Origin: Oscillibacter valericigenes
GTDB lineage: Bacteria > Bacillota > Clostridia > Oscillospirales > Oscillospiraceae
NCBI RefSeq assembly: GCF_021531915.1
Contig: NZ_JAFBIV010000009.1
Span: 1 to 64,000 of the forward strand
Length of the DNA: 64,000 nt
Direction of reading: 5' to 3'
Within the stretch, counting starts at the first letter, position 1. Every line of letters begins with the position of its first letter. Positions 22,007 through 35,683 of this stretch are shown piece by piece. The notes beneath the pieces were generated by a model. The model worked only from the letters and a program-made list of their open reading frames with translations. It made no database searches and was not told the DNA's origin. The translations under genes were made by a program, and so were the position numbers.

Positions 22007-22121
22007 AGGTGTTTCCTCCCAAATCGTGCTGGGTATAGTGTACCGCCTTTGGCCTGCCTTTTCAAGAAATACATATTTTGAAATGCGGGGGGACATACTG
22101 GATGGGAAAGGAAGTGTTTCC

Positions 22122-22565
22122 ATGGATATGACCCCCAAGGAATACCAACAGTACGTGAAGGAGAAATCCCAAAAGTCCCCCATCCTAAAGGACGTGGTCC
22201 TGGCCTTCATCATCGGCGGGCTGATCTGCGTGGTGGGCCAGGCCATCCAGAACGGCTGGAGCGCCGCGGGACTGAACGAGGAGGACGCCGGCACCGCCAC
22301 CTCCTGTACCCTGGTGCTGCTGTCGGCCCTGCTGACGGGCTTCAACCTGTACAGCAAGCTGGCCCGCTTCGGCGGCGCCGGGACTCTGGTGCCCATCACG
22401 GGCTTTGCCAACGCCGTGGTGTCCCCGGCCATCGACTTCAAAAGCGAGGGCTTCGTCACCGGCATGGCGGCCAAGATGTTCACGGTAGCAGGACCCGTCA
22501 TCGTGTTCGGCACGCTGGCCAGCGCGATCTACGGCGTGATTCTCATGTTATTGCAGAGCTTTTAG
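22122..22565 (+). CDS. spoVAC: Stage V sporulation protein AC
   Basis: SpoVAC is an inner-membrane channel subunit that moves dipicolinic acid during spore formation and germination. This 147-residue protein has the family's TPKEYQQYVKEKSQKSP opening, about four membrane helices, and GAGTLVPITGFANAVVSPA. AAAGGAAG precedes the ATG. It stands without spoVAD/spoVAE. The last 40 codons are repeated, in a G/C-richer version, at 35434-35550; the copy used here probably arrived with the island inserted at this point. Confidence 0.93.
   Translation: MDMTPKEYQQYVKEKSQKSPILKDVVLAFIIGGLICVVGQAIQNGWSAAGLNEEDAGTATSCTLVLLSALLTGFNLYSKLARFGGAGTLVPITGFANAVVSPAIDFKSEGFVTGMAAKMFTVAGPVIVFGTLASAIYGVILMLLQSF
22446..22492 (+). 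repeat. Left 47-bp direct repeat inside spoVAC
   Basis: These 47 bases recur perfectly at 35434-35480. They encode the EGFVTGMAAKMFTVAG part of SpoVAC. A second identical block of 23 bases (GTCATCGTGTTCGGCACG onward) follows in both copies after a few mismatches. I read this as an attachment or recombination site of the island between the copies. Confidence 0.9.
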
Positions 22566-22573
22566 AACAATTT

Positions 22574-22608
22574 TGCCCACTTCGTAATCGACGAAGTGGG
22601 CATTTTTT
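22574..22608 (+). terminator. spoVAC terminator
   Basis: Twelve-base perfect arms (22574-22585 and 22591-22602) are followed by TTTTTT. Confidence 0.85.
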
Positions 22609-22772
22609 GTATGTCTATTGTAACTCGTAAGGCCAAACAGAAGCGAAAAGGCTCTTGAACTCCATGAAATGGGGGAGAAAGTTTCCTTGGAAACCTTTAT
22701 ATAGATGCTTATTCCAGTTTGACTAAGGTGCTTGTATGAAATCATCTGCCTGCAAGGGATGATCGATAAAAT

Positions 22773-22813
22773 GTGATATTATCACGGAACGACCACACAG
22801 AATCTGTTAAGAT
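22773..22813 (+). promoter_or_regulatory. Operator 1 (GTGATATTATCAC) and SDR promoter
   Basis: The palindrome at 22773-22785 is followed by CGGAAC in the -35 position and TAAGAT (22808-22813) as -10. The palindrome centre is 29 bases before the -10 hexamer, the class II activator spacing shared by three other promoters of the island. Confidence 0.75.
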
Positions 22814-22846
22814 ACGGCCATAAACAAAAAGAAAGGCGGTCTGAAT

Positions 22847-23593
22847 ATGAGACTGAAAGATAAGGTTGCGATTATCACCGGCGGCAGCCGGGGCATCGGG
22901 TTTGCTACTGCGGACAAATTTCTGAAGGAAGGCGCTACCGTCATCCTGACTGCAAGTTCTCAGGCATCGGCTGATAAGGCTGTTGCACAGCTGCAAGAAA
23001 AATATCCGGAGGCAACCGTCGCGGGGATCAGCCCTGATCTGTCCAGTCTGGAATCTGTCCGTAATGCGTTCCGTGAAGCCACTGAAAGGTATGGTTGCGT
23101 GGATATTCTGGTGAACAATGCCGGCGTGTCTGAAAGCACCCCTTTTACCGAATATACCGAGGAGACCTTCGATAAGGTTATGAATCTGAATGTGAAAGGC
23201 GTGTTCAACGCCACACGGGCAGCCAGTGAGTGCATGGTGGCGCGGGGCGAGGGCGTTATTCTCTCCACATCCTCTATGGTCAGTATTTCCGGCCAACCCA
23301 GTGGCTTCGCCTATCCCGCGTCCAAGTTCGCAGTCAACGGCTTGACAGTATCCCTGGCCCGTGAGCTTGGTCCCAAGGGCATTCGGGTCAACGCGGTGGC
23401 TCCCGGCATCACGGAGACCGACATGATGAAGGCTGTTCCCAAGGAAGTCATCGAGCCGATGATCAAGCAGATCCCCCTGCGCCGTCTGGGCCAGCCGGAG
23501 GACATTGCAAATGCATTTGTGTTCCTGGCCTCTGATGAAGCATCCTATATTACAGGCGTGGTGCTGAGTGTGGATGGTATGGCAAGAACCTAA
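22847..23593 (+). CDS. Short-chain dehydrogenase/reductase, FabG-like
   Basis: This 248-residue SDR has the cofactor loop TGGSRGIG (residues 11-18), NNAG near 88, the catalytic Ser of STSSMVSISG and the YPASK pair, and the C-terminal GQPEDIANAFVFLASDEASYITG. It should reduce or oxidise a carbonyl/hydroxyl group with NAD(P)H; the substrate is not evident. Its promoter carries operator 1. It is the first gene of the island and a hairpin terminator separates it from the rhodanese lipoprotein. Confidence 0.88.
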   Translation: MRLKDKVAIITGGSRGIGFATADKFLKEGATVILTASSQASADKAVAQLQEKYPEATVAGISPDLSSLESVRNAFREATERYGCVDILVNNAGVSESTPFTEYTEETFDKVMNLNVKGVFNATRAASECMVARGEGVILSTSSMVSISGQPSGFAYPASKFAVNGLTVSLARELGPKGIRVNAVAPGITETDMMKAVPKEVIEPMIKQIPLRRLGQPEDIANAFVFLASDEASYITGVVLSVDGMART

Positions 23594-23598
23594 AAACA

Positions 23599-23632
23599 AA
23601 CAAGGCGGCTGACACGCAGCCGCCTTGTTTTC
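23599..23632 (+). terminator. Intrinsic terminator after the SDR
   Basis: Twelve-base arms (23599-23610 and 23618-23629) with a seven-base loop end in TTTTC. No separate promoter is obvious for the next gene, so read-through may express it. Confidence 0.7.
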
Positions 23633-23651
23633 AAAACACGGAGGAATGACC

Positions 23652-24041
23652 ATGAAGAAAATCATACCCTTTTTGATGGCCCTGCTGCTTTTGGCCGGAT
23701 GCGGAGCGCAGTCGGAGGAGAGCACCTACCGTCAGATCAACGCAGAAGAAGCCGCCGCCATGATGGAGGAGGAGAGCGGCTATCTCATTCTGGACGTCCG
23801 GACTGCGGAGGAATTCAGCGAGAAGCATATCCCCGGCGCCATCAATATCCCCAACGAGACCATCGGCACTGAAGACATCCCGGAGCTGCCAGACAAGGAG
23901 CAGCTGATCCTGGTATACTGCCGCAGCGGCAACCGCAGCAAGCAGGCGTCCGAAAAGCTGGTAAAGCTGGGTTATACCAACATCGTCGAGTTCGGCGGCA
24001 TCAATGACTGGACGGGAGAGACCGTCAGCGGCGCTTTGTGA
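23652..24041 (+). CDS. Rhodanese-like lipoprotein
   Basis: This 129-residue protein has a lipoprotein signal peptide with LLLAGC (Cys near residue 17) and a single rhodanese domain with LDVRTAEEFSEKHIPGA and the active-site loop CRSGNR. Rhodaneses carry sulfane sulfur as a Cys persulfide. Placement outside the membrane is unusual next to cytoplasmic sulfur enzymes and suggests handling of external thiosulfate or polysulfide. Its stop codon lies inside operator 2. Confidence 0.88.
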   Translation: MKKIIPFLMALLLLAGCGAQSEESTYRQINAEEAAAMMEEESGYLILDVRTAEEFSEKHIPGAINIPNETIGTEDIPELPDKEQLILVYCRSGNRSKQASEKLVKLGYTNIVEFGGINDWTGETVSGAL

Positions 24042-24078
24042 CAATATCACGGAACTTGTATGAAATCCCGGTTATCAT
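24038..24078 (+). promoter_or_regulatory. Operator 2 (GTGACAATATCAC) and thioredoxin promoter
   Basis: The near-palindrome at 24038-24050 overlaps the preceding stop codon, is followed by CGGAAC at the -35 position and by TATCAT (24073-24078). Centre to -10 distance is 29 bases. Confidence 0.75.
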
Positions 24079-24115
24079 GGAGTCATCAAACAAGAGATCA
24101 TAGGAGGACTTGCAT

Positions 24116-24421
24116 ATGTCTGTTATCCATATCAACAAGAATAATTTTCAGAATAAAGTTCTGAATTCTGAGAAACCCGTCCTGCTGGACTTCTGGGCGC
24201 CCTGGTGCGGCCCCTGCCGGATGGTCAGTCCCATTGTGGATGAGATCGCAGCCGAGCGCGGCGACATCAAAGTAGGCAAGGTCAATGTGGACGAGCAGCC
24301 GGAACTGGCCGCACAGTTCGGCGTTATGAGCATCCCAACCCTGGCGGTAATGAAGGGCGGCAAAGTCGTCAATCAAATAGTGGGCGCACGGCCCAAGGCG
24401 CAAATTCTGGCCATGCTGTGA
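24116..24421 (+). CDS. trxA: Thioredoxin
   Basis: This 101-residue protein is a canonical thioredoxin: the active site WCGPC in FWAPWCGPCRMVSP, the cis-proline in SIPTLAVMKGG, and full normal length. It reduces protein disulfides in the cytoplasm and would be recharged by the thioredoxin reductase unit encoded at 31794. The start at 24116 follows TAGGAGG; an in-frame TTG six bases earlier is too close to it. It leads an operon with a rhodanese and a CoA-disulfide reductase. Confidence 0.95.
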   Translation: MSVIHINKNNFQNKVLNSEKPVLLDFWAPWCGPCRMVSPIVDEIAAERGDIKVGKVNVDEQPELAAQFGVMSIPTLAVMKGGKVVNQIVGARPKAQILAML

Positions 24422-24433
24422 GGAGGCTCAGGT

Positions 24434-24754
24434 ATGGGATTCTTCGATTTCCTGAAAGGACCCGACATCAGTCAGGGTGTAAAAGAGTATCAGGCCACGC
24501 CCGGCGCTGTTCTTCTGGATGTCCGCACGCTGGAAGAGTACCGGGAAGGACATATCCCCGGCAGCAAGAATGTGCCGCTTCAGTCCCTTGACAAGGTGAC
24601 CGGCTTCGTCAATAATCAAGATACGCCCGTGTTTGTCTACTGCCACAGCGGAGCCAGAAGCAGTCAGGCAGTCAGCGCGCTCCGGCGCATGGGATACACC
24701 AACGTCAAAAATATCGGCGGCATCGCCGCTTATGCAGGAAAGGTGGAACGATAA
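24434..24754 (+). CDS. Single-domain rhodanese sulfurtransferase
   Basis: This 106-residue protein is one rhodanese domain with LDVRTLEEYREGHIPGSKN and the active-site loop CHSGARS. It lacks a signal peptide and is cytoplasmic. It lies 12 bases behind thioredoxin, which can reduce its persulfide, and one base before the CoA-disulfide reductase/rhodanese gene, so three sulfane-sulfur and thiol-disulfide proteins are co-expressed. Confidence 0.9.
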   Translation: MGFFDFLKGPDISQGVKEYQATPGAVLLDVRTLEEYREGHIPGSKNVPLQSLDKVTGFVNNQDTPVFVYCHSGARSSQAVSALRRMGYTNVKNIGGIAAYAGKVER

Positions 24755-24755
24755 T

Positions 24756-26447
24756 ATGAAAGTTGTCATCGTAGGCGGCGTGGCAGGCGGCGCTACTGCT
24801 GCGGCCCGCATCCGCAGATTGGAGGAGCAGGCGGAGATCGTGGTGTTTGAGCGGTCCGGGTTCATCTCCTACGCCAACTGCGGTCTGCCCTATTACATTG
24901 GCGGAGTCATTGAGAACCCCGAGGAGCTGACCCTCCAAACGCCGGAGAGCTTCTTCTCCCGCTTCCGGGTCAACATGAAGGTACGCCACGAGGTCACTGC
25001 CATCCACCCCGACAAAAAGACGGTCTCCGTGACAAATCTGGAAACCGGAGATGCGTTCGAGGAAAGCTACGACAAGCTGATCCTCTCTCCCGGAGCCAAG
25101 CCCACCCAGCCCCGGCTCCCCGGCGTGGGATTGGACAAGCTGTTCACCCTGCGCACCGTGGAGGACACCTTCCGCATCAAGGAGTACATTGACCGGAACC
25201 GTCCCAGGTCCGCCGTATTGGCGGGCGGCGGCTTCATTAGCCTGGAGCTGGCGGAGAATCTGCGGGAACTGGGGATGGAGGTCACCATCGTCCAGCGGCC
25301 CAAGCAGCTGATGAACCCCTTTGACCCGGACATAGCGTCCTTTATCCACAGTGAAATGCGCCGCCATGGCGTGAAGCTGGCTCTGGGTCACACGGTGGAG
25401 GGCTTCGAGGAAAAGAACGGTGGCGTGGATGTGCTGCTGAAGGACGAAGCTCCCCTCCATGCCGACATGGTGGTGCTGGCCATCGGCGTTTCTCCGGACA
25501 CCCACCTCGCTCAAGAAGCTGGACTGGAGCTGGGCATCAAGGGCAGCATCGTGGTCAACGACCGGATGGAGACTTCCGTTCCCGACATCTATGCCGTGGG
25601 CGACGCGGTGCAGGTGAAGCATTTCGTCACCGGACAGGATGTTCTGCTCTCCCTGGCAGGCCCCGCCAACAAGCAGGGCCGTATCGCGGCGGACAACATC
25701 TGCGGCGGCGACAGCCATTATATGGGCAGCCAGGGCAGCAGCGTCATCAAGGTCTTTGATATGACAGCGGCTTCCACCGGTGTCAACGAAACCAACGCAA
25801 AAAAGGCTGGGCTGGACGTGGACACCGTTGTCCTCTCCCCCATGAGCCATGCGGGCTACTACCCCGGCGGCAAGGTCATGACCATGAAGGTAGTCTTTGA
25901 AAAGGAGACCTACCGCCTGCTGGGCGCCCAGATCGTGGGCTATGAGGGCGTAGACAAGCGCATCGATGTGCTGGCCACCGCCATCCGGGCCGGGATGAAG
26001 GCCACGGAACTGAAAGACCTGGACCTGGCCTACGCGCCGCCCTATTCCTCCGCCAAGGACCCGGTGAATATGGCGGGCTTTATGATCGAAAACATTGCAA
26101 ACGGCGTCCTGAAGCAGTGGCATCTGGCAGACGCGGACACGCTCCCCCGGGACGGCAGCGTAACGCTGCTGGATACCCGCACGGTGGAGGAATTTGCCCA
26201 CGGACACATCGACGGCTTTACCAACATCCCTGTGGATGAACTGCGGGAGCGGCTGGGTGAGCTGGACAAGTCCAAGCCGGTGTACGTCATCTGCCAGAGC
26301 GGCCTGCGCAGCTACATTGCTTGCCGTATCCTGGCCGGAAATGGCTTTGACTGCTATAACTTCTCCGGCGGCTTCCGGTTCTACGACGCGGTAATGAACG
26401 ACCGCTGCCTCATTGAATCGGCCACTGCCTGCGGTATGGACAAATAA
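24756..26447 (+). CDS. CoA-disulfide / persulfide reductase fused to rhodanese
   Basis: This 563-residue flavoprotein matches the CoADR-RHD (NADH:persulfide oxidoreductase, Npsr) architecture: FAD motif VVGGVAGGATAAARIRR at the N-terminus, the single redox Cys in SYANCGLPYYIGG (C42), a second Rossmann motif AGGGFISLELAENL, the dimerisation domain, and a C-terminal rhodanese with CQSGLRS. Such enzymes reduce CoA-persulfide or CoA disulfide with NAD(P)H and release sulfide. It ends the operator-2 operon and is followed by a strong terminator shared with the convergent chrA genes. Confidence 0.93.
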   Translation: MKVVIVGGVAGGATAAARIRRLEEQAEIVVFERSGFISYANCGLPYYIGGVIENPEELTLQTPESFFSRFRVNMKVRHEVTAIHPDKKTVSVTNLETGDAFEESYDKLILSPGAKPTQPRLPGVGLDKLFTLRTVEDTFRIKEYIDRNRPRSAVLAGGGFISLELAENLRELGMEVTIVQRPKQLMNPFDPDIASFIHSEMRRHGVKLALGHTVEGFEEKNGGVDVLLKDEAPLHADMVVLAIGVSPDTHLAQEAGLELGIKGSIVVNDRMETSVPDIYAVGDAVQVKHFVTGQDVLLSLAGPANKQGRIAADNICGGDSHYMGSQGSSVIKVFDMTAASTGVNETNAKKAGLDVDTVVLSPMSHAGYYPGGKVMTMKVVFEKETYRLLGAQIVGYEGVDKRIDVLATAIRAGMKATELKDLDLAYAPPYSSAKDPVNMAGFMIENIANGVLKQWHLADADTLPRDGSVTLLDTRTVEEFAHGHIDGFTNIPVDELRERLGELDKSKPVYVICQSGLRSYIACRILAGNGFDCYNFSGGFRFYDAVMNDRCLIESATACGMDK

Positions 26448-26448
26448 C

Positions 26449-26495
26449 AATAACCCCTTCTCAGATTCCACAGGAACATGAGAAGGGGTTATTCT
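26449..26495. terminator. Bidirectional terminator
   Basis: Fifteen-base perfect arms (26449-26463 and 26479-26493) lie between the convergent reductase and chrA genes. Confidence 0.85.
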
Positions 26496-27053
26496 TTAGT
26501 AAATGAGAATCCCAAGCATAGCCGAGGCGATGATCAGCAGGATGGGCGAGAGTTTTTTCTTTTTGAGAGTACGATACATCGCCATACAGGCAGCCAATAC
26601 CACCACGATCAGCAGTGCCCGCAAGTCCGCTTTGGCACCTTGCACCAGAGGAAAGCAGTTGTGCAGCGTCATATAGACGCCGGTGGCCAGGATAATGCCG
26701 ATCATACAGGGCTTCAATCCCTGCAGAACAGCCTGTGCATACTTGCCTTTCAGGATACCCCTGAGCAGGTTCATGACCAGTAGGATCACGAAGAAGGACG
26801 GCAGTACTACTGCCAGCGTGGCGAGGACTGCGCCCCCAAAGCCAGCCTGACTGCTGCCCACATACGTGGCGAGATTCACCATGATGGGGCCGGGTGTGCT
26901 TTCGCTGACGGCGATCATATAGCTCAACTCCTCGTCGCTGAGCCAGCCGCAGGACAGCACCACATCCCGGATGAGGGGGATGGCGCTGTATGCACCGCCG
27001 AAGGTAAAGCAGCCCACCTTCAAAAAGCCCAGAAGCAGTTCCAGATAGATCAT
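26496..27053 (-). CDS. Chromate transporter family protein, half-size subunit
   Basis: This 185-residue membrane protein is a half-size ChrA domain with FLKVGCFTFGGAYSAIPLI, the SESTPGPIMVNLATYVG motif and about five to six membrane helices. Half-size ChrA proteins work as pairs; its partner is the overlapping upstream gene. ChrA transports chromate in some bacteria, but in anaerobes the real substrate is unclear. The ATG overlaps the partner's stop by four bases. It belongs to the crp-chrA-chrA leftward operon. Confidence 0.88.
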   Translation of the reverse strand: MIYLELLLGFLKVGCFTFGGAYSAIPLIRDVVLSCGWLSDEELSYMIAVSESTPGPIMVNLATYVGSSQAGFGGAVLATLAVVLPSFFVILLVMNLLRGILKGKYAQAVLQGLKPCMIGIILATGVYMTLHNCFPLVQGAKADLRALLIVVVLAACMAMYRTLKKKKLSPILLIIASAMLGILIY

Positions 27054-27640
27054 TGCCCGGCACCGCCTCTCTGCGCCGGTGCGCTTTTTGCGGCAAAAAC
27101 GGACAGGCTGATGATCCCTGCTGCCAGCATCAAAGCGACAGAGGAGATCCGCAAGGAGAAGAGGTTGCCAAGCAGCATGATGACAAAGGCGCATCCTGCG
27201 ATGATACGCGGCTGCGGCTTTTTCTTCATCTTCTTCAGCATCGTTGCCCTAGCATCTAAAATCAGCAGGCTTACGCCCACTTTGATGCCCCTGCATGCTG
27301 CAGCAATCACCTGATATTCCAGAAAGTGCTCCAGGAACATGGAGATGAGATAGAGGATCACAAAAGAAGGGAGCACGATACCCAGGGTCGCCAGCACGGC
27401 ACCCGTCATGTCTGCCATCTTGTAGCCCACATAAGTGGCGCAGTTGATGGCGATGGGGCCGGGCGTGGATTCCGCCAATACGGTGAGGTCCATCATCTCA
27501 TCCTGTGTTAGCCACCGCTTTTTCTCCACGCAGGTATCGGTGATCACGGAGATCATGGCGTATCCGCCGCCAAAGGTAAACAGCCCTACTTTCATAAAAC
27601 TGAAAAAGAGTTGAGAGAGCATCGGCAGCGGCTTACGCAT
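27050..27640 (-). CDS. Chromate transporter family protein, half-size subunit
   Basis: This 196-residue partner has FMKVGLFTFGGGYAMISVI, AESTPGPIAINCATYVGYKM and about six membrane helices. The start ATG at 27640 lies inside the end of the Crp/Fnr gene with GGAGG correctly spaced, so expression follows the regulator. Together with the next gene it makes the two-subunit ChrA unit. Confidence 0.88.
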   Translation of the reverse strand: MRKPLPMLSQLFFSFMKVGLFTFGGGYAMISVITDTCVEKKRWLTQDEMMDLTVLAESTPGPIAINCATYVGYKMADMTGAVLATLGIVLPSFVILYLISMFLEHFLEYQVIAAACRGIKVGVSLLILDARATMLKKMKKKPQPRIIAGCAFVIMLLGNLFSLRISSVALMLAAGIISLSVFAAKSAPAQRGGAGQ

Positions 27641-28292
27641 GTTGCAGTTCCTCCAATGCGGCCCCATCCGTGATCTCCACAGTTCCCCGGGCCAGCTTCA
27701 CCATGCCCTCGCTCTGGAAATACCGCAGCATCCGGGTGACTACCTCCCGGGCAGTTCCCAGATGGTTGGCAATGGTCTCGTGGGTAATTTTGAGGACCTG
27801 CGTTTCTTCCAGCGTGCTTTCTTCCAGCAAAAACGCGGCCAGCCGCTTGTCAAAGCTCTTCCACATGATCTGCTCCATGAGCCACATGACCTCGGAGAAG
27901 CGGGTGGCCATGATCTCATTGGTAAAATTGGATACCGGGGCGGATTCCTGCATGATGCTTTGATATATTTCTGCAGGGACGATCCACAGCTCCGTGTCCT
28001 TTTCCGCCTTGATCATCATTTCAAATTGAATGGACCGCATCATGCAGGAGGCGGAGAACAGGCAGATATCCCGGTCAAACAGGCGGTAGAGGGTGATCTC
28101 TCGTCCCTCGTCGGAGAGGATGTAGGCGCGAAGCTGACCATGCCGGATCAGAAGCAGACCCGTACAATCCAGGTTTCCGTTATGAAGAACGGCCCCCTTC
28201 TTTACAGTGCGGCTGACCGCATTGCCTTTGAGTTGCTGCTGCTGTACGGAAGTCAATTTCTCCCAAACAGGAAAATAATCTTGAAACTCCAT
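27633..28292 (-). CDS. Crp/Fnr-family transcriptional regulator
   Basis: This 219-residue protein has an N-terminal cyclic-nucleotide-binding-type beta barrel (residues about 25-115), the dimerisation helix and a C-terminal winged helix (about 165-205). The recognition helix reads TAREVVTRML; its R-E-x-x-x-R spacing equals the CRP residues that read GTGA half-sites. Three Cys residues (43, 77, 83) in the sensor domain could serve redox or persulfide sensing, which is inference. It is the obvious candidate for the four GTGA-N5-TCAC operators of the island. It is transcribed from a symmetric divergent promoter. Confidence 0.9.
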   Translation of the reverse strand: MEFQDYFPVWEKLTSVQQQQLKGNAVSRTVKKGAVLHNGNLDCTGLLLIRHGQLRAYILSDEGREITLYRLFDRDICLFSASCMMRSIQFEMMIKAEKDTELWIVPAEIYQSIMQESAPVSNFTNEIMATRFSEVMWLMEQIMWKSFDKRLAAFLLEESTLEETQVLKITHETIANHLGTAREVVTRMLRYFQSEGMVKLARGTVEITDGAALEELQHA

Positions 28293-28321
28293 GGTACACC
28301 CCCTCTGCTTCAGTCACACCC

Positions 28322-28388
28322 AGTATAAAGCTGTTTACGGCATATGTCAATTATGATAATTGACATATGCCGTAAATGGGCCTATACT
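28322..28388. promoter_or_regulatory. Symmetric divergent promoter on a 43-bp perfect palindrome
   Basis: A perfect palindrome with 21-base arms and a single central base spans 28334-28376. Rightward: TTGACA (28360-28365), 17 bases, TATACT (28383-28388). Leftward, on the other strand: TTGACA (28350-28345), 17 bases, TATACT (28327-28322). Both -35 boxes lie inside the palindrome, so one dimeric factor bound at the centre could block both crp-chrA and DUF134-NifX transcription. Confidence 0.85.
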
Positions 28389-28426
28389 TTCTTTATAAAG
28401 CAACGTGAAGAAAGGAGGCATACCCT

Positions 28427-29197
28427 GTGCCAAGGCCAAAGAAATGCAGGCGCGTGTGTGATTACCCCCGGACGCTGACATTTTTGCCGGAAGACCTCAA
28501 AGACAGAGAACAGGCCGTCATCCTGACGGTGGATGAGTACGAGACCATCCGCCTCATCGACAAAGAGGGACTCTCCCAGGAACAGTGCGGCGATTTCATG
28601 CAGGTTGCCCGCACCACCGTGCAGCAGATCTACGCCAGTGCCCGTAAGAAACTGGCGGATGTGCTGGTGGACGGCCTTCCTCTGCGGATCGAGGGCGGAG
28701 ACTATCAGCTCTGCAACGGGGGCAACCGGGCCTGCGGATGCAGCAACTGCTATAAACAAAAATTCAATCAACTATATGAAAAACCAAAAGGAGAACACAT
28801 CATGAGGATTGCGGTCACTTACGAAAACGGAGAAATTTTTCAGCACTTCGGCCACACGGAGCAGTTCAAGGTCTACGATGTGGAAAACGGCAAAATCATG
28901 TCCGCCGAGGTGGTGGATACCAACGGCAGCGGCCACGGCGCACTTGCAGGTGTTCTGAGCGCGCTGCATGTGGACGCACTGATCTGCGGCGGCATCGGCG
29001 GCGGCGCTCAGGCGGCGCTGGCAGCGGCAGGCATCCAGCTGTATGGCGGTGTATCCGGCGACGCGGACCAGGCGGCAGAGGCGCTGGCTGCCGGAACGCT
29101 GGCCTATAACCCCAATGTGATGTGCAGCCACCACGGAGAGCACCACCACGAGGGCAACTGCGGTGATCATGGCTGCGGCCATCACTCCTGCGGTTGA
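28427..29197 (+). CDS. DUF134 DNA-binding domain fused to NifX/NifB-type cofactor-binding domain
   Basis: This 256-residue protein starts with GTG after AAAGGAGG. Residues 1-100 are DUF134 (UPF0251) with the MPRPKKCRRVC start, a helix-turn-helix LSQEQCGDFMQVARTTVQQIY and a Cys-rich end (CNGGNRACGCSNC). Residues 126-235 are a dinitrogenase iron-molybdenum-cofactor domain (MRIAVTYENGEIFQHFGH, CGGIGGGAQAAL), and the last 22 residues are a His/Cys metal tail. A second ATG at 28802 with its own AAAGGAG site could also yield the NifX part alone. The DUF134 helix-turn-helix is a candidate binder of the palindrome just upstream. Confidence 0.85.
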   Translation: MPRPKKCRRVCDYPRTLTFLPEDLKDREQAVILTVDEYETIRLIDKEGLSQEQCGDFMQVARTTVQQIYASARKKLADVLVDGLPLRIEGGDYQLCNGGNRACGCSNCYKQKFNQLYEKPKGEHIMRIAVTYENGEIFQHFGHTEQFKVYDVENGKIMSAEVVDTNGSGHGALAGVLSALHVDALICGGIGGGAQAALAAAGIQLYGGVSGDADQAAEALAAGTLAYNPNVMCSHHGEHHHEGNCGDHGCGHHSCG

Positions 29198-29202
29198 AAT
29201 AA

Positions 29203-29242
29203 GTGACAAAGTCACGGTATTTGTGCCGTGATTTGATAAAAT
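29203..29242 (+). promoter_or_regulatory. Operator 3 (GTGACAAAGTCAC) and rubredoxin promoter
   Basis: The palindrome at 29203-29215 lies just behind the DUF134-NifX stop, with CGGTA in the -35 position and TAAAAT at 29237-29242. Centre to -10 distance is 28 bases. Confidence 0.72.
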
Positions 29243-29267
29243 ATGGCTAAAGGAGGCGGTGAACCCT

Positions 29268-29897
29268 ATGAAGCAATATGTTTGCAGTATTTGCGGCTAT
29301 GTTTATGACGAAGCTGCCGGTGGCAAGTGGGAAGATCTTCCTGTCGATTGGAAGTGTCCCCTGTGCGGTGCAGATAAATCCCAATTCCGGGAGAAAATCG
29401 AGCAGGCCAAGCCTGCTGCTGCGCTGGACAAGCCCCATGTGGAGAAAGAACTGTCCGCCATGGAAATGAGCATCATCTGCTCCAACCTGGCAAGAGGCTG
29501 TGAAAAGCAATATCTGCCCCAGCAGGCGGAAGATTTTCGGAAGCTGGCAGAGTTCTTCCAGTCCAAGGCGGAACCGGTGCAAGAGCCCAGCGTCAAAAAA
29601 CTGCTGGAACTGATTGAACATGACCTCTCGGTTGGCTATCCCTATGGCAACGCAGTATCCGCCGAGAAGCCGGATCGGGGCGCCCTGCGGTGCCAGGTCT
29701 GGAGTGAAAAAGTCACCCGGATGCTCCAATCCCTGTTGACCCGCTATGAAAGCGAAGGGGACAAGATGCTGGAAAATACCGGTGTCTGGGTCTGCACGGT
29801 CTGCGGCTTTGTCTATGTGGGCAACGCGGCTCCGGAACTGTGCCCGGTCTGCAAGGTGCCCAGCTGGAAATTTGAAAAAGTGGAAGGGAGGGCTTGA
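29268..29897 (+). CDS. Double-rubredoxin protein
   Basis: This 209-residue protein has an N-terminal rubredoxin domain ([14 protein letters not shown], then [11 protein letters not shown]), a helical middle part of about 110 residues, and a C-terminal rubredoxin-like knuckle ([10 protein letters not shown], then [11 protein letters not shown]). Rubredoxins carry single electrons on one iron. Such proteins would pass electrons to the rubrerythrin and desulfoferrodoxin encoded next. The ATG at 29268 is preferred over a GTG at 29259, which is too close to AGGAGG. Confidence 0.88.
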
Positions 29898-31045
29898 TGA
29901 TGGCTGAAAAATACGCGGTGAGAAATCTTCGTTTATGCACCAAGGACTGTCTGTGTCTTTACGTCTGTCCCACTGGGGCCACGGATACGGAGAACAGCGT
30001 CATTGACCCGGAAAAGTGCATCGGATGCGGCGCCTGTGCCGAAGCCTGTCCATCCTCTGCCATTTCTATGGTTCCCAAGACCCTTCCTGTGCAGCAGCCC
30101 AAGGAGGAGAAAGTTGTAGAAGCCCTGCGGGGTCTGGTACAGAGCAAGGCGCAAGCCGAGAGCATTGCTTCTCAGTTGCCGGATGCCCTGAGCGTGGCTG
30201 TGGAAAAATCCTCCCGGCTGATGGCAGAGGACCTGTGCCGTGAAGCGGGCTTCATGCTTCCCCAGAGCAGCAACACTAAGGCGTTCCTGGAAAGCATCAA
30301 AGCATATCCCGGCATCCCGGCGGATGTGGTGGAATCCCTGTTACATACCATTCAATTCAATGAAAAAACGGAGGAAACAAGCATGGAAAAGTGGAAATGC
30401 AGCGTCTGCGGTTACATTCATGAAGGCCCCATGACCCCTGATTTCAAGTGCCCTGTCTGCAAGCAGCCCGCCGACAAGTTTGTGAAGATCGAAGAGGCCG
30501 CCCCTGCGAAGAACCCCTATGCCGGTACCAAGACGGAGAAGAACCTGTGGGAAGCCTTTGCCGGTGAGAGTCAGGCCCGGAACAAGTACACCTACTTCGC
30601 CTCCGTCGCCAAGAAGGCCGGCTACGAGCAGATCGCCGCGCTGTTCCTGCACACCGCTGAGAACGAGAAGGAACACGCCAAGCTGTGGTTCAAGGCTCTG
30701 GGCGAGCTGGGCGATACTGCCGAGAACCTGCTCCATGCCGCTGAGGGCGAGAATGCCGAGTGGACGGATATGTATGACCGCATGGCCCGTGAGGCCGACG
30801 AGGAAGGCTTCCATGAGCTGGCCGAGCAGTTCCGTGGCGTTGCTGCCATTGAGAAGGTCCATGAGGAGCGCTACCGCAAGCTGCTGAGCAACGTGGAGGC
30901 CATGGCCGTCTTTGAGAAGAGCGGCGTTACTATGTGGGAGTGCCGTAACTGCGGCCACCTGGTCGTTGGCACCAAAGCTCCCGAGGTTTGCCCTGTCTGC
31001 AAGCATCCCCAGGCATTCTTCGAGGTGCGCGCGGAAAACTATTAA
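29897..31045 (+). CDS. Ferredoxin-rubredoxin-rubrerythrin-rubredoxin fusion
   Basis: This 382-residue protein combines an N-terminal 4Fe-4S domain ([12 protein letters not shown] plus CLCLYVCP), a helical linker, and from residue 163 a reverse-rubrerythrin-like module: rubredoxin ([21 protein letters not shown]), a ferritin-like diiron domain ([41 protein letters not shown]) and a second rubredoxin ([14 protein letters not shown]). Rubrerythrins reduce hydrogen peroxide to water. An internal ATG at 30383 with GGAGG eight bases upstream could make the peroxidase module alone. The start overlaps the previous stop as ATGA-like spacing. Confidence 0.88.
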
Positions 31046-31058
31046 GGGGGAGTTATTG

Positions 31059-31436
31059 ATGAGCGCAAAGTTTTACATCTGCCGTCACTGCAGCAATTTG
31101 GTGGGCGTGATCCATGACTCCGGCGTGCCTATGATGTGCTGCGGCCAGAAAATGGAGGCTCTGGAGCCCAACACTGTGGAGGCCAGCGGTGAAAAGCATC
31201 TGCCTGTGGTCGCTGTGGAAGATGGCGCGATCAACGTCAATGTGGGCGCTGTGAACCATCCCATGGCTCCTGAGCACTTCATCGAGTGGGTCTATGTTCA
31301 GACGGAGCGTGGCGGTCAGCGCAAGACCCTGAAGCCCGGCGATGACCCCAATGTCACCTTCTCCCTGGGAGATGACAAGGCAGTGGCTGTTTACGCATAC
31401 TGCAACCTCCACGGTCTGTGGATGACCGAGATCTAA
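31059..31436 (+). CDS. Desulfoferrodoxin (superoxide reductase)
   Basis: This 125-residue protein reduces superoxide to hydrogen peroxide. It has the N-terminal desulforedoxin iron site (C8, C11, C27, C28: CRHC and MCCGQK) and the C-terminal catalytic site with EKH (residues 45-47), NHPMAPEHFIEWV and YCNLHGLW. It lies 13 bases behind the rubrerythrin fusion, which can remove the peroxide it makes. A terminator follows. A second, host-style copy is at 39387. Confidence 0.95.
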   Translation: MSAKFYICRHCSNLVGVIHDSGVPMMCCGQKMEALEPNTVEASGEKHLPVVAVEDGAINVNVGAVNHPMAPEHFIEWVYVQTERGGQRKTLKPGDDPNVTFSLGDDKAVAVYAYCNLHGLWMTEI

Positions 31437-31445
31437 AACACTGAG

Positions 31446-31482
31446 ATAATCGCCTGCCGCTGTTTCGGCAGGCGATTATTCT
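31446..31482 (+). terminator. Terminator after desulfoferrodoxin
   Basis: Fourteen-base perfect arms (31446-31459 and 31466-31479) with a six-base loop precede a short T-rich end. Confidence 0.75.
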
Positions 31483-31721
31483 AATGGAGGAATTATGCGG
31501 CATACAAATGTGAGTTTTATCTTCCTTGATCGAGTTCTGGAGGTTGAATGAAATATTTGAGGCCAACAGTGGAAGTCCGCTCTGGCACTGACCCTTCCGG
31601 ATATCTGTGGTAGTATAGCCTACCCGGAAATTGTGAAAAACATCGGGACGGACGCATTATGCTGAATCGACAGAATAATCCCGCCAGAGATGGCGGCTTC
31701 ACGCAGCGGAGCTGCCTTTTT
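31483..31721 (+). other. Intergenic stretch with two tiny overlapping frames
   Basis: GGAGG-AATT precedes an 18-codon frame at 31495-31551, and GGAGG-TTGA precedes a 21-codon frame starting at the overlapping ATGA (31548). Neither matches a protein I know; they may be remnants of a decayed gene or leader peptides. A short hairpin with a T-run lies near 31700-31721. Confidence 0.35.
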
Positions 31722-31761
31722 GTGATATCGTCACGGAAGCATCGGTCATTTGTGGTATACT
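31722..31761 (+). promoter_or_regulatory. Operator 4 (GTGATATCGTCAC) and thioredoxin reductase promoter
   Basis: The palindrome at 31722-31734 is followed by ACGGAA in the -35 position and TATACT (31756-31761). Centre to -10 distance is 28 bases. Confidence 0.75.
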
Positions 31762-31793
31762 GATCATAATAAAAGCAAAAGGAGCGATGAGTG

Positions 31794-33059
31794 ATGTCGA
31801 TTTTGAATATGAATGCAGAAGGCTACCGGAAGTTCACACAGGCGGAGCAGCCTGTTATGGTTGAATTCTCAGCCCCTTGGTGTGTATATTGCCGCCGTCT
31901 GGCTCCAGCATTGGAGAGTGTGGCGGAGGAGTACCAGGATACGTTGGTGTTTGGTGCGGTCAACATTGATGACGAGCCGGAATTAGCTCAGTCCGAGAAG
32001 ATCGAAGTTGTCCCCACTTTGCTGATCTATCAGAACGGACAGGTTCTTGGCTCTATCGTAGCCCCGGAATCCAGGGCACAGCTGGTGGCTTTCATTGAGG
32101 AAACCTTGCAGCACCGGGAGCAGGAGGCGAATGTTACGAAACATATCTATGATATGATCGTGGTGGGCGGTGGACCCGGTGGCTATACCGCAGCACTTTA
32201 TGCTGCCAGAGCCGGATTGGACACGGTGGTTTTGGAGAAACTGTCTGCCGGCGGGCAGATGGCTTTGACCGAGCAGATCGACAACTATCCCGGCTTTGAG
32301 GATGGCATCGACGGCTTTTCTCTGGGAGAGAAAATGAAGCGTGGAACAGAGCGGTTCGGCGTAGAGACAAAGCTTACCGAGGTGCTGTCACTTGACCTGT
32401 CCGGTACTGTGAAGAAAGCGGCGACCAGTGAAGGCCCCTTGTTTGCCAGAACAATCGTGTTGGCAACCGGTGCCGGCCCGAGAGAACTGGGGGTTGAGAG
32501 CGAGCAAGAACTGATTGGCAAAGGCGTCAACTACTGTGCGGCTTGTGACGGAATGTTCTACAAGAACAAAACTGTGGTCATCGCAGGCGGTGGGAATACC
32601 GCTGCGGCAGACGCTCTGATTCTCTCCCGCATTTGCAAAAAGGTAATTGTTGTTCATCGCAGAGATACCTTGCGGGCAACTAAGATCTACCATGAACCGT
32701 TGATGAAAGCGGAGAATGTGGAATTCCGATGGGACAGCGAGATTATTGAGCTGCTTCACGACGAAAAGGTGATCGGCATCCGACTGCGGAATGTGAAAAC
32801 CGGAGAGAAGACCACTCTGGCCTGTGATGGTGTGTTTGTCAGCATTGGAAGGAAACCTTCCAGCGAATTGGTGAAAGATCAGGTTAAGGTTGATCCAGCG
32901 GGTTATATCATTGCAGATGAGAGTACCCGCACCAACATTCCCGGCGTATTCGCTGTGGGTGATGTCCGTACAAAGGCATTACGGCAGGTTGTGACCGCCG
33001 TGGCCGATGGAGCAACCGCTGTGCACTATGCAGAAGAATATTTGGCAGGAGGAATGTGA
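31794..33059 (+). CDS. Thioredoxin-thioredoxin reductase fusion
   Basis: This 421-residue protein has an N-terminal thioredoxin domain (residues 1-105) with the altered active site WCVYC, then a complete thioredoxin-reductase-like flavoprotein: FAD motif VGGGPGGYTAALYAARAG, redox pair CAACDG, NAD(P) motif AGGGNTAAADAL and the C-terminal FAVGDVR. The known mycobacterial fusion has the opposite order (reductase first). It would take electrons from NAD(P)H and serve thioredoxin and, through CcdA, the extracytoplasmic TlpA encoded downstream. GGAG lies nine bases before the ATG. Confidence 0.92.
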   Translation: MSILNMNAEGYRKFTQAEQPVMVEFSAPWCVYCRRLAPALESVAEEYQDTLVFGAVNIDDEPELAQSEKIEVVPTLLIYQNGQVLGSIVAPESRAQLVAFIEETLQHREQEANVTKHIYDMIVVGGGPGGYTAALYAARAGLDTVVLEKLSAGGQMALTEQIDNYPGFEDGIDGFSLGEKMKRGTERFGVETKLTEVLSLDLSGTVKKAATSEGPLFARTIVLATGAGPRELGVESEQELIGKGVNYCAACDGMFYKNKTVVIAGGGNTAAADALILSRICKKVIVVHRRDTLRATKIYHEPLMKAENVEFRWDSEIIELLHDEKVIGIRLRNVKTGEKTTLACDGVFVSIGRKPSSELVKDQVKVDPAGYIIADESTRTNIPGVFAVGDVRTKALRQVVTAVADGATAVHYAEEYLAGGM

Positions 33060-33060
33060 G

Positions 33061-33270
33061 ATGAAAAAAGGAAAAAAGTGGCTGAAGCCAGCTCTTTTTA
33101 CCGCAGGTGGCGCATTGATTGGCCTCTCATATTATTGCTTTGTCGGATGCTCCACCGGAGCCTGCCCACTGACTGCTAACCCATTCATCACGATGGCGTA
33201 TATGGGCTTGGTTGGCTGGCTGCTGTCCGGCGTTTTCGGAAAGGAATGTGAGAACGGATGCAATATGTAA
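33061..33270 (+). CDS. DUF6132-type small membrane protein
   Basis: This 69-residue protein has two membrane helices and four Cys residues, with YYCFVGCSTGACPLTANPF in the loop between them, which matches my memory of the DUF6132 family that travels with redox and rhodanese genes. The Cys set suggests thiol or sulfur chemistry at the membrane. It starts one base after the thioredoxin reductase stop and overlaps ccdA by 13 bases. Confidence 0.8.
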   Translation: MKKGKKWLKPALFTAGGALIGLSYYCFVGCSTGACPLTANPFITMAYMGLVGWLLSGVFGKECENGCNM

Positions 33271-33920
33271 TATCCTTCCTGGAAGGCATCATCACGTTCA
33301 TCTCTCCCTGTCTGCTGCCCATGCTGCCTATATACATCTCTTACTTCGCAGGCGGTGGAGAGCGCAGCATAGGAAAGACACTTGCGGGCGCCGTTGGCTT
33401 TGTGGCTGGTTTTACCGCTGTTTTTGTGACCATGGGCGCTCTGGCAGGCACCGTTGGCGGCTTCCTTCGGGAATATCAAACCGCAGTGAATATTATTTCC
33501 GGCTTGGTGGTGATTTTCTTTGGGCTGAACTTCTTGGGCGTTTTTCAGCTGAATCTGTTTAAGGGCAGCAGCCGGTCTGTGGATACCGGAAATATGAATT
33601 TCTTTTCAGCATTGCTCTTTGGCGTGATCTTTTCCCTGGGCTGGACGCCTTGCGTAGGAGCCTTCCTGGGCTCTGCGCTGATGCTGGCCTCTCAGCAGGG
33701 GCATGTGGCAGAAGGAATGTTGATGCTCCTTGCCTATTCTTTGGGGCTGGGAATTCCTTTCCTTCTCAGCGCCGTGCTGATCGACTATCTGAAGTCGGCT
33801 TTCAACTGGATCAAAGGTCACTACCGGGCCATTAACCTTGTCTGCGGCGTTTTTCTGGTGCTGGTAGGGATCCTGATGGCCACCGGGACTCTTGGGCGGC
33901 TTCTGAGTCTGCTCAGCTAA
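33258..33920 (+). CDS. ccdA: Cytochrome c biogenesis protein CcdA
   Basis: CcdA carries reducing equivalents from cytoplasmic thioredoxin across the membrane. This 220-residue protein has six membrane helices and the conserved pairs ISPCLLPMLP in helix 1 and GWTPCVGAFLG in helix 4, whose Cys residues form the redox pair. It lies between a thioredoxin reductase fusion and a TlpA-type thioredoxin, so the full electron route from NAD(P)H to the outer face is encoded in one operon. Confidence 0.94.
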   Translation: MQYVISFLEGIITFISPCLLPMLPIYISYFAGGGERSIGKTLAGAVGFVAGFTAVFVTMGALAGTVGGFLREYQTAVNIISGLVVIFFGLNFLGVFQLNLFKGSSRSVDTGNMNFFSALLFGVIFSLGWTPCVGAFLGSALMLASQQGHVAEGMLMLLAYSLGLGIPFLLSAVLIDYLKSAFNWIKGHYRAINLVCGVFLVLVGILMATGTLGRLLSLLS

Positions 33921-33929
33921 GGAGGTACT

Positions 33930-34529
33930 ATGAAAAGCAAGAAAACAGTTCTAATGATTCTCCTTGCCTTTGTCTTGGTGCTGGGCGGCGCCAGTGTGCT
34001 TTACAACCGTTTGGGCGAGAATTTGGCTCCCGAGCAGCTGGCAGAGCAGGCTCCGCAGGCGTCAGAACCCGTATCTGATAATTCAGCTGGTTCCGGGGAA
34101 TCTGAACCGGAAAAAGTGCTTGCGCCGGATTTCACCGTGTATGATTTGGAGGGGAATGAGGTACATCTGTCGGACTTCATCGGGAAACCCGTCATCCTGA
34201 ATTTCTGGGCCAGTTGGTGCGGCCCCTGCCAGAGCGAAATGCCGGACTTTGATGAGGCCTATGCAGAGTTGGGAGATGAGATACATTTTCTTATGGTGAA
34301 TATGACCACCAGTTCTCGGGAGTCCTTTGAAAAGGCGTCAGCGTTTATCGAGGATAAAGGTTACTCGTTCCCAGTGTTCTATGACCTGGATTCCAATGCG
34401 GCCACGACCTATGGTGTGTATTCGCTCCCGACAACGCTGTTCATTGATGCAGAGGGGTATGGAATTGCTCAGGCCACCGGTGCCATCGATCGCGAAATCC
34501 TGCAGAGAGGGATAGACATGATTAAGTGA
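33930..34529 (+). CDS. TlpA/ResA-like extracytoplasmic thioredoxin
   Basis: This 199-residue protein has an N-terminal membrane anchor (residues 7-25), a Ser/Glu/Pro linker and a TlpA-like thioredoxin domain with ASWCGPCQSEMPDF and the cis-proline YSLPTTLFID. It faces outward and would keep thiols reduced there with electrons from CcdA. No cytochrome c genes are near, so a role in cytochrome maturation is less likely than repair of, or sulfur transfer to, external proteins such as the rhodanese lipoprotein. Confidence 0.92.
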   Translation: MKSKKTVLMILLAFVLVLGGASVLYNRLGENLAPEQLAEQAPQASEPVSDNSAGSGESEPEKVLAPDFTVYDLEGNEVHLSDFIGKPVILNFWASWCGPCQSEMPDFDEAYAELGDEIHFLMVNMTTSSRESFEKASAFIEDKGYSFPVFYDLDSNAATTYGVYSLPTTLFIDAEGYGIAQATGAIDREILQRGIDMIK

Positions 34530-34603
34530 TATTGTGCAGAATGTATGGCCTCTCCTATGGAAGAATAACTCACCATGTTCAACAAACATACAGGAGAACA
34601 TAG

Positions 34604-35278
34604 ATGCAAAAGAATATCGCTATATACAGAAGCATAGACACATGGCTTGAGAAGCAATACGCGCAATTGGGATTGACTGGACTTCAGGCATCCGCAATTA
34701 TGGTTCTGTTAGATGCCCATAAGATATCACAAAGTGAACTTGCCGGTGAGCTTGGCGTAGGGAAGAGTGCCGTCTCAAAAGTGTCCAGTAAACTTTTGGA
34801 ATTAGGCTACGCTGAGCGGCGACGAAGACGGAAAGATAAGCGGCTTCATTTGCTATGCCCGACCCAGAAAGCTGCTCAACTCAGTCCTCAGTTGGTCGCT
34901 ATTCAGAACCAGCTGGAAGAAATACTCTTTTCGGATTTTTGGGAAGGTGACCGGGAGAGGCTGGAATACTATCTGGATAGAATCAGAGATAATATTCCGC
35001 TGCTTCATGGGAGATCGTTTGAGCCGGTGCCGCCATATCGTATGAAAGATATTCCGGATGATCTGCGAAATATCACACCAGAGCAATGGGAGGCCATGCG
35101 GAAGGTCGATATCAGAACCGTAGATAAATCTCAACTTGTTGATATTCGGACGATCAAAATCGATGAGGAACTGCCACCCATTGACAGATGGTTTAGCTAT
35201 CTGCGTCAAGTCAAAAACCCATATTGCGTCAGAGTAGGGGACATGGCGATAAAGATCAACTTTCCTGACGAGAATTGA
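34604..35278 (+). CDS. MarR-like regulator with DUF6870-like C-terminal domain
   Basis: Residues 1-110 form a MarR winged helix (LTGLQASAIMVLLDAHKISQ, GVGKSAVSKVSSKLLELGY). Residues 160-224 (VDIRTVDKSQLVDIRTIKID, then FIRQ-like YLRQVKNPYCVRVGDMAIKI) look like DUF6870, a small domain I know from conjugative and integrative elements. The fusion is unusual and the tail marks the right end of the island as element-derived. The gene has its own spacing from tlpA, and no operator of the GTGA type is seen before it. Confidence 0.75.
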   Translation: MQKNIAIYRSIDTWLEKQYAQLGLTGLQASAIMVLLDAHKISQSELAGELGVGKSAVSKVSSKLLELGYAERRRRRKDKRLHLLCPTQKAAQLSPQLVAIQNQLEEILFSDFWEGDRERLEYYLDRIRDNIPLLHGRSFEPVPPYRMKDIPDDLRNITPEQWEAMRKVDIRTVDKSQLVDIRTIKIDEELPPIDRWFSYLRQVKNPYCVRVGDMAIKINFPDEN

Positions 35279-35364
35279 TTTAACCGCGCACCCCATTCAT
35301 AGGTATAATTGTGTCAATCGGGAGTGAATATGATTGTTTGGTCCAAACAGTATCCCGATGCAAA

Positions 35365-35397
35365 GGCGGCCCACTGAAAAGTGGGCTGCCGTAATTT
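35365..35397 (+). terminator. Hairpin at the right island end
   Basis: Eleven-base arms (35365-35375 and 35380-35390, one G-T pair) with a GAAA loop are followed by GTAATTT, a weak terminator. Confidence 0.55.
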
Positions 35398-35433
35398 CTC
35401 AGAGAAAAGTGTATGTCTATCTTAACACAACCA

Positions 35434-35480
35434 GAGGGCTTCGTCACCGGCATGGCGGCCAAGATGTTCACGGTAGCAGG
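35434..35480 (+). repeat. Right 47-bp direct repeat
   Basis: Perfect copy of 22446-22492 within the stranded spoVAC end. Confidence 0.9.
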
Positions 35481-35550
35481 CCCGGTCATCGTGTTCGGCA
35501 CGCTGGCGTCGGCCATTTACGGCGTGATCCTGATGCTGCTGGGTGGATAA
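35434..35550 (+). pseudogene. spoVAC: Stranded 3' end of spoVAC
   Basis: The frame reads EGFVTGMAAKMFTVAGPVIV and continues to YGVILMLLGG and a stop, the last 38 codons of SpoVAC. There is no start or upstream part. It differs from the intact gene's end mainly at third codon positions and in the last residues (LLGG against LQSF). Its G/C-rich codons match the host genes around it, so I take it as the original gene end displaced by the island. A strong terminator follows. Confidence 0.88.
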
Positions 35551-35554
35551 GACC

Positions 35555-35594: not shown

Positions 35595-35618
35595 GTCAAA
35601 AGAAATGGAACCTCCGGC

Positions 35619-35647: not shown

Positions 35648-35683
35648 ATTTTTCAACTGTCAATCAACATCGGAGGGATTTCC

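Follow-up and report, generated by a model that had tools for sequence, protein, structure and literature searches.

A redox island in codon 109 of spoVAC

The 64-kb window analyzed here (positions 1 to 64,000, forward strand, of contig NZ_JAFBIV010000009.1, assembly GCF_021531915.1, Oscillibacter valericigenes) carries a redox gene island inserted in the germination gene spoVAC. The island is probably a non-autonomous member of a family of cassettes that occupy codon 109 (GAG) of spoVAC in Oscillospiraceae, mobilized by larger recombinase-bearing elements via accretion-mobilization and then altered by gene conversion. The junctions, the mobility of the island, an empty site, stacks of cassettes, and one recombinase element lying upstream of cassettes were observed in the assemblies and are described below.

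The 47 bp at 22446-22492 recur exactly at 35434-35480, as a first-pass annotation of the window had claimed, and the adjoining bases differ on both sides. Within the window, 36 25-mers are present at least twice on the + strand, 23 of which belong to this repeat, and no inverted copies of 25-mers were found; thus, the repeat is not due to chance. Another place with a repeated 25-mer, among the matches listed, is at about 51.77/52.34 kb. The left copy lies inside a complete spoVAC gene (22122-22565, ending ...LLQSF*; 178.5 bits for TIGR02838 against a cut-off of 164, with a PF03862 match). The right copy, again as the first-pass annotation had described, opens a stranded spoVAC end (35434-35550, ...LLGG*) that is without the first 108 codons and is followed by its own terminator-like hairpin and then an aminotransferase gene. 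The coherent set of redox and thiol genes described between the repeats was confirmed by Pfam scans. The GC content is 0.614 to the left of the island (12000-22445), 0.541 inside, and 0.624 to the right (35434-46000).

In a genome of the same genus (G039), hemN, a spoVAC gene ending in LLGG, and the aminotransferase gene follow in direct succession and are 92-95% identical to the window, which is the empty-site allele that had been proposed as a check. G029 carries the island's right end as well (94% over 153 bp), joined at the same base to its own, different spoVAC end. In ER4 (Oscillibacter sp., NZ_JPJG01000078; the places are also given by G330 and G517), the left part of the island is 95.9% identical over 3,913 nt, the right end 99.1% over 351 nt, and the chromate-transporter region 99.7% over 338 nt, whereas the host DNA is far more divergent (70.7% in the 5' part of spoVAC, 66% in hemN). 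Identities of 96-99.7% in parts of the island against 71% in the 5' part of spoVAC indicate that the island moves. The ER4 island is shorter, with a transporter remnant abutting a cut-down DUF6870 gene, and is spread over two contigs. An island present in all lineages, which the first-pass annotation had regarded as contrary to its proposal, was not observed: the right end of the window island is found in 5 of 86 genomes of the genus including the window's own (the copy in G025 being in another gene). A spoVAC end is found in 74 of the 86 (E ≤ 0.001). The proposal of a horizontally moved, non-phage redox island that brings a substitute spoVAC end is supported, with the native end displaced to the right.

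Two further arrangements were seen at spoVAC. Two contigs of G111 (C209 and C279; loci L143/L144) overlap by ~55 bp, and one of them begins right at the spoVAC core, which would fit a sampled population with both empty and occupied alleles. In G028, G007, and G043 (L040, L041, and L034), a different insert of ~150 bp follows just after spoVAC and holds an inverted piece of the core, CACGGTGAAC. Beyond this insert, the last ~70 bp of spoVAC are repeated; the insert has no arm, and its boundary is ~40 bp inside the gene end.

Location of the join and the probable conversion tract

In ER4, the host part of spoVAC stops at the GAG of codon 109 and the element's end starts at once, with 24 of 47 positions differing from the native end of ER4. 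In the window, the first 47 bp show no difference from the local native end. This stretch is host specific: among 59 core copies of the genus (59 loci, with some genomes counted twice), the window's own is the sole copy without a mismatch, and the closest other copy, in G039, has 1/47. The 47 bp as the core of strand exchange are ruled out by ER4. The role of spoVAC as the integration site, with replacement of the gene end, was upheld from the first-pass annotation, whereas the 47-bp repeat as the attachment core was not, since ER4 joins at GAG with 24/47 mismatches. From the junctions, the attachment core is predicted to be the GAG codon at the 5' edge of the repeat and not the 47 bp. In window coordinates, all on the + strand, the host part of spoVAC (codons 1-108; 22122-22445; 92% identical to G039 over the gene, and 71% to ER4 in this 5' part) is followed by the putative core (22446-22448), at which the 26 right junctions of the survey below and the left junctions of ER4, G515, and G463 fall, by the rest of the repeat (22449-22492), and by the element-borne end ...LLQSF* (22493-22565), whose C-terminus is the same in ER4, G101, G102, G516, and G118.

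The 47 bp are best read as a later conversion tract. In G101 and G102, the element's end is shared from GGGCCTGTG onward and different before it, and in G210 and G271, which belong to different genera, it is shared only from ~80 bp on. The host-like left stretch varies accordingly, from 0 bp in ER4 to ~47 bp in G000 and G102 and ~80 bp in G210. A fixed right boundary combined with a variable host-like stretch on the left would be explained by site-specific joining at GAG, then gene conversion.

In all nine genomes compared, the left end of the element continues spoVAC in frame where the host part stops. Over 24 codons, synonymous and nonsynonymous differences between element-borne ends (raw counts, uncorrected for numbers of sites) are 6 vs. 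1 for ER4/G101, 3 vs. 0 for G101/G516, 7 vs. 1 for G516/ER4, and 3 vs. 2 for G000/G118. The mainly synonymous change is as would be expected if these ends are translated.

Survey of right junctions

Twenty-six right junctions at codon 109 (GAR) were found in 21 genomes or contigs, behind variants of one arm of ~20 bp; one further junction, with a truncated end, in L173 stands outside this count. In the window, the putative right attachment arm, GTATGTCTATCTTAACACAACCA, occupies 35411-35433 (+), and its last 20 bp match the arm of the recombinase element in L167 at 19/20. Seventeen of the 26 junctions were found without presupposing the codon, and 10 of these were also found without the arm, by recombinase or spoVAC-end protein (L077, L170, L171, L172, two in L173, G413, G575, and the second and third ends of G102). 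The argument is carried by these independently found junctions.

A search with the arm alone (up to three mismatches) in the 86 genomes of the genus gave six sites, comprising four at spoVAC, one in a racemase-like gene (G025), and one chance-like site (G043). An exact search in genome_contigs gave six sites, five at spoVAC and one at the G025 locus, three of the six repeating sites of the genus search. When the pattern was extended from the arm into the beginning of the spoVAC end, 13 sites were obtained from 11 of 366 family genomes, and 12 of these sites are true; the site in G222 is a chance match in an ABC transporter. Hosts with a told genus include g1, g82, g106, g113, g120, g127, and g128, and one host (G575, f18) is of another family; most of the host genomes are drafts. 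In viral_contigs, there were no exact matches to the 22-bp arm, the left motif, or the ER4 left junction, and no relative of the spoVAC protein was found by a search via exact peptide words. The right end was not found in plasmids.

Recombinase elements at spoVAC

Ten right junctions lie behind large serine recombinase (LSR) genes, and the full triplet LSR1-LSR2-LSR3 is present at seven of them: L167 (the same as L077), L170, L171, L172, and L173 in viral_contigs, plus G575, where the first gene is cut by the contig end, and G474. Nine viral_contigs were returned with LSR1; three (L078, L168, and L169) stop inside the element and six run past LSR3, five of which have the spoVAC end next. The sixth, L174, has no spoVAC end, and its recombinases are only 32-39% identical. 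Resolvase, Recombinase, and zinc ribbon domains were found in all three proteins of L077, in which domains were tested, and the recombinases of the other elements were assigned by similarity to these. A DUF6870 gene stands ahead of the recombinase genes wherever the contig reaches that far in this clade. Left junctions were seen in G515 and G463, each on another contig than the right end. At these junctions an inverted arm follows GAG, clearly in G515 and weakly in G463, and codon 109 is where spoVAC is interrupted. A partial recombinase query gave one match in 300 family genomes (E ≤ 1e-60), and an LSR3 query gave one match in 394 genomes of the order (E ≤ 1e-100). LSR3 of L077 scores 31-63 bits on cassette chromosome recombinase (Ccr) models, for which the cut-offs are 700-900.

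Other genes were noted on these elements and beside them. L168 has YqaJ, RecD2, and primase-type domains. Among the four proteins of G463, there is one TrbL-like match below the cut-off (21.6 vs. 27 bits) and no NCBIfam match. In G515 and G575 (L109 and L106/L146), the spoVAC end is followed by a gene read from sequence, without a family search, as spoVAD; a recombinase element would break the spoVA operon there.

The arms of the two kinds of occupants were compared over the last 20 bp before GAG. For 11 of the 17 cassette arms (near-duplicates and G412 left out), the best match among nine recombinase-element arms is 14-20 of 20, which for arms found by pattern is partly by construction. Among 20,000 random 20-mers of the whole window, with the true site not excluded, two reach 14. 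Over 48 bp, the best pairs are G101 with L167 (45/48) and G280 with L173 (40/48, as also for the inner L173 arm with the same element). The likeness of the arms supports a putative recombinase specificity shared by the two kinds of occupants.

Recombinase-less cassettes and their stacks

No large serine recombinase of this type is visible at the other 16 right junctions, although for some of them little of the element is on the contig (385 bp in G029). The right contig of ER4 has weak partial recombinase matches (35-44%) nearly 6 kb outside the island. In the window, tblastn with the three recombinases (E ≤ 1e-4) found no relatives of the triplet, the only match being DUF6870, and a Pfam scan of 17 island proteins (16 cargo proteins plus a MarR-DUF6870 fusion) found no mobility gene. 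The first spoVAC is whole wherever the left end of a cassette was seen, namely in G000, ER4, G101, G102, G516, G444, G271, G210, G280, and G118, the last by its left end only, with the right end not seen. A single contig holds both ends in G000, G444, G271, G210, and G280.

Cassettes also occur in stacks. In G444, an intact spoVAC is followed by a 9.2-kb cassette, a spoVAC end, a 5.4-kb cassette, and another end. In G102, the right end of a redox cassette is followed by cassettes of ~0.7 kb and ~1.6 kb. In L173, a recombinase element lies directly upstream of a cassette with a NERD gene, which is followed by the truncated end, a GDSL-hydrolase gene, and the last end. Six cassettes are smaller than 2 kb. 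Other cargo includes one gene matching PD-Lambda-3_B (1.7e-66) and DACNH, DUF4143, LGT, and Y1_Tnp domains. The cassettes of G271 and G210 (L164 and L165) are closely similar, with a Y1_Tnp-type gene, in two genera.

Proposed mechanism and alternatives

A cassette would consist of a spoVAC 3' end, a terminator, cargo, and the conserved right arm. The larger elements, with the serine recombinase triplet, usually a DUF6870 gene, and a right arm of the same type, would integrate at the same codon and split spoVAC. The deduced attP (arm, GAG, inverted arm) would recombine with spoVAC to give attL and attR (arm, GAG, spoVAC end), with cassette boundaries corresponding to attR. Where an element lies upstream of a cassette, as in L173, there would be two right-hand sites of one type, that of the element and that of the cassette, and recombination between the left site and the far right site would excise element and cassette for joint transfer. 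In a new host, the element would leave via the near attR, and the cassette's spoVAC end would be fused to the host 5' part, leaving spoVAC whole with its native end displaced. Gene conversion from the native end would then overwrite some tens of bases at the start of the cassette's end, producing the 47-bp repeat. Mobilization in trans is likewise a proposed step. The route would use only standard reactions and the accretion logic described in the available parts of PMC5704250, where joint transfer of tandems of integrative and conjugative elements (ICEs) and integrative and mobilizable elements (IMEs) is reported.

Several observations weigh against this scenario. The same right end (95% identical) occurs in a racemase-like gene in G025 (JALFSO010000012, Dysosmobacter sp. 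SUG973, L064/L073), at a locus with other cargo and a shortened DUF6870 gene, the racemase-like assignment being read from sequence without a family search. The left and right ends of ER4, G101, G102, G516, G515, and G463 are on different contigs in each assembly, and their pairing is deduced. In G474, 2.4 kb separate the third recombinase gene from the boundary; before the contig ends, G413 shows two recombinase genes and G463 and G515 show one each. No contig was found to span a complete recombinase element from end to end, no excised circle was found, and no close recombinase relative was found in the window's own genome (E ≤ 1e-60; E ≤ 1e-100). Nine of the 26 junctions (two each in G444 and G412, and those in G474, G271, G210, G280, and G463) came from patterns containing the arm and GARGG and therefore agree by construction. 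Between the left and right copies, 10/47 positions differ in G101 and 7/47 in G516, which makes the conversion reading weaker there. Finally, in 6 of the 10 comparisons between element-borne ends (G101, G516, or ER4 with G000 or G118), 10-13 synonymous against 6 nonsynonymous differences are a weaker sign of selection.

Homologous recombination alone, in which a circle or fragment with a spoVAC end recombines through the shared 75-120 bp and the arm is inherited without a role, could account for the host-like first 45-80 bp of the left copy in several genomes and for their variable end points. It is nevertheless unlikely. The 17 junctions identified without assuming the codon all have their right boundary at that codon, and arm variants precede it in recombinase elements and in cassettes with unrelated cargo, ten of which were found without the arm. 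After a single homologous crossover, one of the copies should carry foreign sequence, and G000 shows none. ER4 joins at GAG with little homology beside it.

Slightly less probable still is the integron-like possibility that the recombinases act in trans directly on excised cassette circles (arm, GAG, and spoVAC end), without accretion. The shared arm and the same-orientation stacks in G444, G102, and L173 are consistent with it; however, the site on such a circle would share one whole arm with its target, unlike the classical attP and attB pair, and serine integrases are reported in the accessible portion of PMC3783163 not to recombine other pairings. Also considered was transposition in which staggered cuts duplicated a long (47 bp) target, so that the two copies would both be host DNA. 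The host-like copies of G000 and G102 (0-2/47 mismatches) would fit, but this reading is very improbable: the length is inconstant, and the duplication is missing from ER4 despite a nearly identical island; in the nine genomes compared, spoVAC is carried on in frame by the left end; the 17 scanned proteins of the window island include no transposase; and no such repeat accompanies the joins at GAG of the recombinase elements in G515 and G463. Tandem duplication is ruled out by the 13-kb insert between the copies and the existing empty site, and a tRNA-type integration site is ruled out as well, the nearest tRNA gene found being at 51.7 kb.

Beyond mobilization by accretion and later conversion, we tentatively suggest that spoVAC may be the dedicated docking site of a two-part system, in which triple-serine-recombinase elements break the gene while cargo cassettes ride along, heal it, and stack, being locked in place by native-end overwriting, and in which healing is selected. 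If so, carriers of a healing end would regain the ability to sporulate after the departure of the breaking element. This raises the testable question of whether the healing of a broken spore gene drives the spread of passengers.

Comparison with known systems

Among the closest known systems are cis-mobilizable elements (CIMEs) and accretion-mobilization in the ICE/IME tandems of Streptococcus, which, as far as PMC5704250 describes them, are recombinase-less islands between att sites in tandem with active elements at one target gene. The system described here differs in its serine-recombinase triplets, its spore-gene target, its cassettes that carry a coding gene end, and a left junction without an element arm beside the core. 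Like a CIME, the window island lacks integration and transfer genes; unlike a CIME, which keeps attL and attR, it keeps the right arm and has no element arm next to GAG at its left junction. A tandem with a related recombinase element was seen once in the family (L173) and not for the window island itself. The window island may work like a CIME, and we do not class it as one.

The SCC and ECC cassette chromosomes at rlmH also have large serine recombinases and cargo that varies; they insert near the 3' end of a conserved gene and show multiple attR sites and repeats of ~50 bp (PMC6222049, in part). They differ from the present system, in which the target is spoVAC, the recombinases are triplets and not CcrAB (LSR3 being far below the Ccr cut-offs), ~39 codons are replaced, and six cassettes fall below 2 kb. 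The gin element in gerE of Bacillus cereus is likewise a non-phage element with three serine recombinase genes that splits a sporulation gene, but it is excised in sporulation to rebuild the gene (PMC5595907, sections available), whereas the window cassette keeps the gene whole while inserted. The window island does not split a sporulation gene as skin and gin do; the recombinase elements of G515 and G463 do split spoVAC. Serine integrase triplets are also carried by ICEs of Streptococcus that enter protein genes (hsdM, traG, mutT); all 29 serine-integrase ICEs in the part of PMC4701971 consulted disrupt their target, and the rumA group, which swaps C-termini, carries an integrase.

Integron cassettes, which are defined by the tyrosine integrase IntI and attC sites, are alike in stacking only. 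The e14 prophage has a tyrosine integrase. It resembles the window island in supplying the 3' end of a protein gene, icd, of which ~163 bp of native end is displaced as a pseudogene; e14 is a prophage, and recombinase-less cassettes or stacks are not described in the portion of PMC6379469 that was accessible.

The first-pass annotation regarded as new the use of a sporulation gene as an integration site, with gene-end replacement, for a non-phage redox cargo. Sporulation genes are already known as integration sites (sigK, spsM, gerE, and yabG, in the sources seen in part). What is new is that the cassettes lack a recombinase, restore the gene, and form stacks. The combination of the spoVAC target, breaking and healing occupants, stacks, and a conversion lock looks new as a variant of SCC/CIME-like islands. 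In the full-text literature, whose coverage leaves out most subscription journals, no paper was found on spoVAC as a prophage integration site, on an Oscillibacter ICE with a serine recombinase, or on DUF6870, and spoVAC was absent among the matches listed for spoVAC and serine recombinase integration. If the proposed mechanism is true, spore-forming gut anaerobes have an SCC-like exchange site tied to a single codon of a germination gene; redox genes, membrane genes, and candidate anti-phage genes would move between genera without disabling spoVAC, and variable SpoVAC C-termini would be marks of cassette turnover. The arm, GAG, and orphan spoVAC end together provide a simple marker for accessory DNA in uncultured Oscillospiraceae.

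Gene content of the window island and minor observations

The left host flank is a HemN-like radical SAM protein gene (20795-22006, - strand), syntenic with the empty site of G039 at 93% nucleotide identity, and the right host flank is the aminotransferase gene (35684-36850, +), 95% identical to its counterpart directly 3' of spoVAC in G039; both were read from sequence without a family search. Behind the element-borne spoVAC end follows an element-borne terminator-like hairpin (22575-22608, +), recognized in the sequence and with a counterpart in related left ends, and then an arm-like motif, GTATGTCTATTGTAACTCG (22609-22627, +), which by eye resembles the right arm in direct orientation and is possibly an old junction.

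The cargo, assigned by Pfam, begins with genes for SDR, rhodanese, TrxA, rhodanese, and CoA-disulfide reductase-rhodanese proteins (22847-26447, +), to which the 95.9% identity with ER4 applies, followed by two chromate transporter halves and a Crp-family regulator (26496-28292, -). Next are genes for a DUF134/FeMo-Co protein, rubredoxin-type proteins, rubrerythrin, and desulfoferrodoxin (28427-31436, +), and for a Trx-TrxB fusion, a small open reading frame without a Pfam match, CcdA, and a TlpA-like protein (31791-34529, +). The last island gene encodes the MarR-DUF6870 fusion (34604-35278, +; PF12802, PF21757), the DUF6870 part of which is 66% identical to the DUF6870 protein of L077; in related elements, the same domain is encoded immediately ahead of the recombinase genes. 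Relatives of the left redox genes occur on Pusillibacter pMM59_01 (72.6% over 60% of the query), where the 19 neighboring features listed include no spoVAC.

Near the right end, a terminator-like hairpin (35365-35392, +), read from the sequence, is conserved in G029, ER4, and G025 and precedes the arm and the displaced native end ...LLGG* (35434-35550, +), which corresponds to the 3' end of the uninterrupted spoVAC in G039. A motif like GAGTATGCTGATTTAGTCCAAA near the right end of the redox elements (35320-35365 in the window) was also noticed by eye near the left ends of the recombinase elements in L108 and L110 and is perhaps a relic of the left end of a parent element. An in-frame ATG from the arm, within 35413-35550, makes the displaced end readable as a 45-residue peptide (MSILTQPEGFVTG...), and several cassette arms also seem to keep this frame open.

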